This document shows, piece by piece, positions 1 through 2,115 of a DNA stretch of 64,000 nucleotides (positions are counted from its first letter, which is position 1; every line of letters starts with the position of its first letter). The notes under the pieces are model-generated. The model was not told where the DNA came from. It searched no databases and worked only from the letters and a program-made list of their open reading frames with translations. Origin of the DNA: Candidatus Bipolaricaulota bacterium. Lineage in GTDB: Bacteria > Bipolaricaulota > Bipolaricaulia > RBG-16-55-9 > DRXL01. The DNA is taken from the NCBI GenBank assembly GCA_938091745.1, contig CALLJK010000018.1, positions 1 through 64,000 of the forward strand. Reading direction: 5' to 3'. Made by a program: the position numbers and the translations under genes.

Positions 1-1086
1 GCTGAGCTGAATCGTACCACAACTTCCTGGGGTTGCCCAGGCAACAGGCTGAAGCTCGCCCCAGACACAATACTAAACGGCGCTGGCGCACTCACCGTCC
101 CACTCAGCGTCCCTCCCCCAGAGTTCCAGATCACAAACGACCCCTGCACCTGCTGATTGATGAACGTCTGGGGCAGAGTCAAACTGGTCGTAGAGAGACT
201 AATCGCTGGAGTCCTGCTGAGACACAAGTAGTCATAGCCCCACTGGGAAGTGCAGATCTGTGAGCCTTCGTAGCCGCCCTCAAAGTCCCCTTCCCCAGGA
301 GGAACAGCCAGGGGTTGCATCTTCATTCCCGCTGGCACCGCTTCTCCAGTCGCTTGCCCACAGGCCGTCGCTTGAATCTGAGGCTCAGCATCATCCTCCA
401 GCTCGTCGTCCTTGTCCGCCTTGATCTTCACCCGCACCTGATGCGCGATCTTCTCCTCATTCCCCTCACTAGCTATCCCCAGAATCGCTACTCCGTTGGC
501 CTCATCGAACAGGGCTCGCACCTTACCTACTCGCTTGCCCTTCTGCGCCAGCTTCCCCTCAAACTCTTGGAACTTCGGCTTCTCTCGAAGCTTGCGTAGC
601 AGCTTCTCCACCTTCTGCTGGGGCAGGAATCTCACAACCCGCTCCTCTCCCGTCGCGGAGATGTTGAGGGTCTTGTTGCCCTGACGGACCAAGCCCACGG
701 CTGCGCTCTGACCATTGGCTCTCGTCCAGACTAAGTGCGCATTCTCGCCAAAGGGAATTAATACTTGCTGCCCGCCGGCAAGCTGGACCGCTTGCGCTTC
801 GTCAACATTGATGCCGAACCCGCGGCGCTCCAGCTGCGCTTTGACCGCTTGGAGCTGGGAGTCTGCTAACGCCTCTTGGAGCAATGCGGAGCGATCTGGC
901 TCAAGGATTGGGCTGGAACAGCTGCCACCGAGAGTGCTTAACGGTTGGAAGTTGGCTTCAGAAGCAGAATCAGGCTTCAGCGGGGGGGGGGGTGACATGC
1001 TGAGACTTCAAGAGCGACGTACAGCCGACGAGGACCGAGATGATTCCAATGGCGATGGCGAGCTTAGCCAGGCGAGCCGTGTACAT
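1..1086 (-). CDS. Surface lipoprotein, frameshifted at a poly-C tract, 3' end outside window
   Basis: Not recognised as a named family. Starting at the ATG at 1086 (a strong AGGAGG site lies just upstream), the protein opens with a lipoprotein signal ending in the lipobox LVGC, then SLLKSQHVTPPP. The coding strand then has 11 consecutive C residues and as read reaches a TGA after 38 codons. Removing one C (or adding two) opens a frame that continues without a stop to the window edge, about 330 further residues. That part is hydrophilic, has a Lys/Glu-rich middle, and ends in a beta-sandwich-like segment (SFVIWNSGGGTLSGT...) resembling ASH/choice-of-anchor or CARDB-type Ig-like domains. A good promoter precedes it. 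It is either a phase-variable surface lipoprotein or a sequencing slip in the homopolymer. The reading of the open frame is direct; the domain name is inference. Confidence 0.7.
982..992. repeat. Homopolymer of 11 G (C on the coding strand)
   Basis: Eleven G on the plus strand lie 31 codons after the start of the lipoprotein gene, just after its signal peptide. The length puts the gene out of frame; 10 or 13 residues would restore it. This is the position and type of tract used for slipped-strand phase variation, but also a common place for sequencing error. Confidence 0.85.
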
Positions 1087-1166
1087 ACTCTCCTCCTTTT
1101 GCGCTCCTTCCCCTGCTCCCTCAAGGCTTGAGGCGGGAGTGAGCGGCTTTGTATCTTCTCACCCTC

Positions 1167-1195
1167 TATATACCACAAAACGAGGAAAAAGTCAA
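1167..1195 (-). promoter_or_regulatory. Promoter of the lipoprotein gene
   Basis: On the minus strand TTGACT (1195-1190) is followed after 17 bp by TATATA (1172-1167), about 80 nt upstream of the ATG. Near-consensus sigma-70-type. The rest of 1087-1323 shows no gene. Confidence 0.7.
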
Positions 1196-1323: not shown

Positions 1324-2115
1324 CTAGAAATAATACGGCCTAACGCGGCGTTTCACGAGCAAAGCGAGCAACGCGCCCGTGACAAACCCCCCAGCGTGTG
1401 CCCAATACGCTACACCGCCGCCTTCAATAGGGCTGGAAATCCCTCCCAGAAACTGCATCACAAACCAAAAGCCCAGCAGAAAGATCGCGGGAAGTTCGAT
1501 CAACCTGACAAAGAACGGAAAGAGCGGCACGAGCGTCAAGACCCTCCCATAGGGGAAGAGCACAAAGTATGCGCCCAACACCCCAGAGATCGCCCCGCTC
1601 GCCCCGACCATCGGGATCACCGTGTTTGGATTGGTGAGAATCTGCGCGAACGCCGCGGCCACCCCTGACACTAAATAAAAGAAGACAAACCCAACGCGCC
1701 CAAAGACGTCCTCGATGTTATCGCCGAAGATCCATAAGTACCACATATTGCCCAAGATGTGCCAGAACCCCGCGTGCATGAACATCGCCGTCAGCAGCGT
1801 CAGCCAGACTGTGAATGGGATCAAAGGGGGCAAGTCAGCCCCACGCGTGATCTCGCAGGGCATGACACCAAAACGAAACGTGAACTCGTCCTCCGCAGAG
1901 ATCACGGAGAACCGGCTGAGCAACTGGCTCGCTAGAGCTCTAGGGATCTCGCAGCCAGCTTGCTGCCAGGCGCGCACCCACTGGCGGGTGTTCTCCGTCG
2001 CCGGGGTAGTGCTGAGTGAGAACTGATAGAGAAAGACTAAGACATTTATAACAATAATCACGACGGTGACAACGGGGAACGAGCTGCTATGTCTATAGTC
2101 GCGCAGCGGGATCAT
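1324..2115 (-). CDS. Rhomboid family intramembrane serine protease
   Basis: 263 aa, a polytopic membrane serine protease cleaving transmembrane substrates within the bilayer. The rhomboid signature is clear: HAGFWHILGNMWYLW (about 113-127), the catalytic GASG serine at about residue 173, and the partner histidine in AHAGG at about 240. Six or more hydrophobic segments are visible, with a soluble loop of roughly 50 residues after the first. The start is set by a promoter whose -10 box ends only 6 nt before the ATG, so the mRNA is probably leaderless. It is divergent from the MscS gene. Substrate unknown. Confidence 0.93.
   Translation of the reverse strand: MIPLRDYRHSSSFPVVTVVIIVINVLVFLYQFSLSTTPATENTRQWVRAWQQAGCEIPRALASQLLSRFSVISAEDEFTFRFGVMPCEITRGADLPPLIPFTVWLTLLTAMFMHAGFWHILGNMWYLWIFGDNIEDVFGRVGFVFFYLVSGVAAAFAQILTNPNTVIPMVGASGAISGVLGAYFVLFPYGRVLTLVPLFPFFVRLIELPAIFLLGFWFVMQFLGGISSPIEGGGVAYWAHAGGFVTGALLALLVKRRVRPYYF

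Follow-up and report, generated by a model that had tools for sequence, protein, structure and literature searches.

The window, the whole 64,000-nt stretch of DNA analysed here, starts at the end of contig C18 of a Bipolaricaulota genome (1.74 Mb, 32 contigs), within a repeat family. The gene of interest lies on the minus strand and runs off that end (Table 1). Its leader begins at ATG 1086 with MYTARLAKLAIAIGIISVLVGC and encodes the peptide MYTARLAKLAIAIGIISVLVGCTSLLKSQHV, a lipobox signal peptide whose cysteine is present (...SVLVGCTS...), as it is in the G003 copies and in G008, judged by eye. After 31 codons the leader enters a homopolymer of 11 C residues on the gene strand, confirmed as an exact match to G11 on the plus strand, and it reaches a stop three codons beyond the tract. 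The initial annotation had reported this arrangement of lipoprotein signal and C tract, which the leader frame and the G11 run bear out, and had claimed that loss of one base restores more than 330 codons, which also holds, since arithmetic on the coordinates gives a leader frame of 361 codons to the contig end with 10 C. The body frame is itself open to the contig end (332 aa) from ATG 998, which lies in frame six bases ahead of the tract. The further claim that the gene is off as read was sound for the leader frame, which stops past the tract, but the body keeps ATG 998 in frame at 11 C, so that the window gene at this length is not strictly unreadable and "off" is to be understood as "not exported."

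Table 1. Features at the C18 end of the window
Feature	Positions	Strand	Remark
Exact 141-base overlap with the start of own contig C7; probable gene continuation	1..141		
Body ORF: own ATG 998, conserved N domain, start of HYDIN/VesB-like Ig repeats, runs off contig end	3..998	-	
Leader ORF in the assembled sequence (38 codons): signal peptide with lipobox LVG|C (codons 19-22), continuing across the tract to a stop	970..1086	-	
Homopolymer tract, G11 (+) / C11 (coding -)	982..992		
Ribosome-binding-like AGGAGGAG ahead of ATG 1086	1090..1097	-	Read from sequence
Promoter-like TTGACT-17 bp-TATATA, common to family copies and segments ahead of a few other genes	1167..1195	-	

The region ahead of the leader had been described as a strong promoter. 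The two hexamers are present at the given spacing, but a promoter scan under a strict rule (T required at the last -10 position) reported no promoter at 1167-1195; the segment is called promoter-like here. The three G003 copies have the same two hexamers, which are changed in copies C17, C14, and C27 of the window's own genome; the second hexamer of G003:C27 is TATATA too. The segment recurs ahead of other genes in the genus (own contigs C28 and C26 and loci in G001, G002, and G005), as if it were shared by a regulon or had spread with duplicates. Directly upstream on the same strand is a rhomboid protease gene (PF01694, window positions 1324-2115).

On the other side, the overlap between C18 and own contig C7 looks like the kind left by a k-mer assembler at a branch, and the two contigs are likely joined in the cell. 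Contig C7, the probable 3' half of the window gene, continues with HYDIN/VesB-like Ig repeats; its frame stops at 941, with a second listed frame (358 aa) starting from 969, and the break sits away from any homopolymer. Further along C7 is a gene for a secreted beta-helix protein, and genes of the same type adjoin the homologues in G008, G001, and G007. The G008 homologue is a complete, intact lipoprotein gene of 1,120 codons. The HYDIN Ig repeat profile scored 18.9 bits on the part encoded in the window, which includes only the start of the repeats, against a cut-off of 45, whereas the Ig repeat profile exceeded the cut-off on the full G008 homologue (72.3 versus 45) and on own C7 (54.8 versus 25.5). 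The N domain (approximately residues 34 to 192 of the window ORF) matched no Pfam or NCBIfam family above cut-off. For the window ORF, Foldseek gave no match at an E value of 0.001 or better, a sequence search of the PDB gave nothing useful or convincing, and the AlphaFold2 model had a mean pLDDT of 56.7.

A repeat of this length is beyond chance for the window: a run of at least 11 occurred in 2 of 100 dinucleotide shuffles, an expectation of 0.02. The search for other long G/C tracts that the initial annotation proposed found none longer than 7 in the rest of the window and five runs of at least 9 in the whole genome, the longest being the tract described here. Across 10 genomes of the family there are 41 such runs (5 in the window's own genome and 36 in relatives), and 6 of the 41 lie at this one site, for which the binomial chance is approximately 4e-11, a value that assumes 25 kb for the family and concerns copies that are not independent. 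Among the other tract loci, 23 in relatives were assessed by ORF overlap only, those of the window's own genome were also looked at, and five plus one more were read closely.

Homologues of the window gene were found in 7 of the 60 genomes searched, a count that stands either besides or including the window's own genome, and a profile search found a family homologue in 8 of the 19 genomes of the order; on these counts the view of the gene as an isolated oddity without relatives was rejected. The named records among the family relatives (6 loci) are Candidatus Bipolaricaulota and Acetothermia. The 5' regions were compared at 17 family loci, leaving out the weaker matches G003:C65, G003:C25, and G006:C25 and matches covering only the Ig repeats. 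The leader is kept at 10 of them (window, G003:C11, G003:C8, G003:C27, G007:C49, G009:C10, G008:C69, G006:C43, and two in G016), and 7 are leaderless (own C17, C14, C27, and C6, two in G001, and G006:C8). An uninterrupted tract of 9 to 12 C is present at 6 of the 10 loci with a leader versus none of the 7 without one, where there are at most 8 C. In the remaining loci with a leader, the tract is interrupted but in frame in G008 (CCCCTCCCACCC) and absent from G006 and G016. A separate remnant at G001:C11:334201-334372 is an operon relic that contains the promoter and first leader codons, followed by pieces of both the body and the beta-helix gene.

The six tract copies occupy one homologous site in four genomes, of which G003 is congeneric with the window (genus g1) and G007 and G009 belong to a sister genus. 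Comparison of tract length in related genomes, as suggested in the initial annotation, gave 11 C in the window, 10 in G003:C11, 12 in G003:C8, 10 in G003:C27, 9 in G007:C49, and 10 in G009:C10; the last entered through the tract search and was then confirmed by profile, so it is not an independent draw. In the g1 copies the frame in which the gene is read depends on the length of the repeat. The lipoprotein frame requires a C count (N) of 1 mod 3 in g1, from frames read at N = 10, 11, and 12, and of 2 mod 3 in the sister genus. In G003:C11 the leader and body are open for 351 codons to the contig end, and in the window and G003:C8 the body is out of the leader frame. The same genome, G003, carries one copy in frame (C11, N = 10) and another out of frame (C8, N = 12), on contigs with coverage of ~561x and ~557x, respectively. 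The other three copies are damaged in other ways: G003:C27 has a stop inside the leader, G007:C49 is out of frame with the lipobox Cys replaced by Arg, and G009:C10 is out of frame and rearranged. Only 3 of the 6 tract copies (window, G003:C11, and G003:C8) have an otherwise sound leader, and 1 of the 6 (G003:C11) has the body in frame with it. Tract length differs between related copies and species while the body stays open.

Synonymous differences from the window body amount to 0.48 for G003:C11, 0.47 for G003:C8, and 0.60 for G007:C49. Over these three comparisons the expectation for the three Pro codons of the tract is approximately 4.65 third-position changes, and 0 were observed (P ~0.01, with relatedness ignored); CCC accounts for 14 of the 44 Pro codons in the bodies of the window, G003:C11, and G003:C8. 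The window and G003:C8 bodies give a dS of 0.74 and a dN/dS of 0.15 over 199 codons with no stop, and the window and G003:C11 bodies give a dN/dS of 0.17, also with no stops, which indicates that the out-of-frame states are recent. Ratios against the window are also low for leaderless copies (C27, 0.11; C17, 0.15; C14, 0.47), so that dN/dS cannot tell a switching gene from a recent loss and was rejected as proof of switching.

From these sequence comparisons, the window gene probably encodes a lipoprotein under slippage control (phase variation) in a Bipolaricaulota bacterium, a reading to which we assign a probability of roughly 0.6. Because the homologous copies differ in poly-C length, each copy is probably switched on and off by slippage. 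In the proposed mechanism, the lipobox signal peptide would be joined to the N domain and Ig-like repeats by a poly-C-encoded Thr-Pro-Pro-Pro linker, and a C gained or lost at replication would bring the body into register with the signal peptide or take it out of register. Copies in genus g1 would yield the lipoprotein at N = 1 mod 3, as with 10 C, but at neither 11 nor 12 C, and the window copy as assembled, with 11 C, would represent the non-exported phase. We infer that switching is reversible within a population and that the lipoprotein is expressed and has a surface role. The contingency locus envisaged in the initial annotation is in keeping with the differences in tract length and frame among homologous copies but fits less well with the truncated copies, the tract-independent break in C7, and ATG 998.

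The main rival to switching is a decaying, repeatedly duplicated lipoprotein family in which the poly-C is an ancestral, error-prone codon run and copies are irreversibly lost by slippage, deletion, and point mutation. The many truncated copies (own C17, C14, C27, and C6), the leaderless copies and relic in G001, and the second breaks in own C7 and G001:C11 are what such decay would leave behind; however, the tract is long and uninterrupted in two genera despite a difference of ~47 to 60% at synonymous sites of the body, the tract-shifted copies keep open bodies, and one complete copy and one in-frame copy exist. We regard decay as possible but somewhat unlikely. Homopolymers of such length are error-prone, and the contig ends within the window copy, itself part of a repeat family, so the true tract of this copy might instead be 10 C and the gene simply on. 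Since six copies in four separate genomes all have long tracts, and of differing lengths, a single sequencing or assembly error cannot account for the tract itself, and we consider it decidedly improbable that error explains the window.

Slippage could also act as a start-site switch, in which the body at 11 C is read from ATG 998 to give a cytoplasmic protein instead of a lipoprotein. That ATG is in frame at 11 C and is kept in all four g1 copies with a leader and tract while the base preceding it varies, and in own C27 the promoter segment is almost directly joined to it, although C27 is a truncated copy. No clear ribosome-binding site lies ahead of 998, and it is hard to see what purpose an exported protein's Ig repeats could have in the cytoplasm; we judge this highly improbable. 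A broader scheme, three-state surface variation from multiple copies in a candidate phylum that is not known to associate with hosts, would combine an exported state (1 mod 3), possibly an unexported state from the internal ATG (2 mod 3), and an off state (0 mod 3), with segments exchanged with truncated sister copies. Own C14 is 98 to 100% identical to the window in four adjacent 50-column bins and 46 to 72% identical further 3', a patchiness that hints at segment exchange, but the scheme as a whole appears improbable to us.

Other tracts were seen in the same taxonomic family. In G006:C144 (L095) a G10 run at 1500-1509 splits an exported protein (MHFKKTVFIGSCVLLVGLVVALAIALS), the remainder of which is encoded in a second frame of ~380 codons, suggesting from sequence a second candidate switch in the family, so that the window locus may not be alone. 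G9 runs of equal length immediately precede the coding part of orthologous genes for a Crp/Fnr-type regulator in the window's own genome (L025, C26:18684) and in G003 (L098, C32:680), and between the run and the conserved CxxC part there is no usual in-frame start codon. A G10 run at own C9:84756 (L014) lies in a beta-helix-like gene with a signal peptide, and two more frameshifts downstream suggest that this gene is a pseudogene.

To our knowledge, slippage switches have been studied almost only in host-associated bacteria. If switchability has persisted in this lipoprotein family in two genera of an uncultured phylum, surface variation would pay off even where no host immune system is involved, perhaps as a defence against phage or predators; the switching is testable in existing metagenome reads. 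No report of phase variation in Bipolaricaulota or Acetothermia was found in the full text of open-licence PMC papers, and the titles and abstracts of Bipolaricaulota literature on homopolymers or lipoproteins mention nothing of such a switch. The slippage mechanism is well known; its occurrence in Bipolaricaulota appears to be new.

The protein resembles choice-of-anchor D/HYDIN-VesB-like proteins (PF22544, NF012200) in that, in G008 and own C7, the Ig repeats 3' of the N domain score above the Pfam and NCBIfam cut-offs, but unlike in those proteins the N domain of the window family matches no profile above cut-off. The next downstream gene in own C7, G008, G001, and G007 is by sequence of the NosD-like, right-handed beta-helix type (PF13229, PF05048; Pfam matches on the own and G008 genes) and stands outside the tract mechanism. 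Homopolymer-tract phase variation of surface proteins is described for the poly-G loci of Neisseria and for the 5' poly-A of Listeria inlA (PMC2831843). The window tract differs in lying within the proline linker that directly follows the lipobox, in belonging to an uncultured phylum, and in that its reversibility is presumed; like the Neisseria and Listeria loci, it is a homopolymer in the 5' part of the coding sequence for an exported protein, and its length decides the frame.
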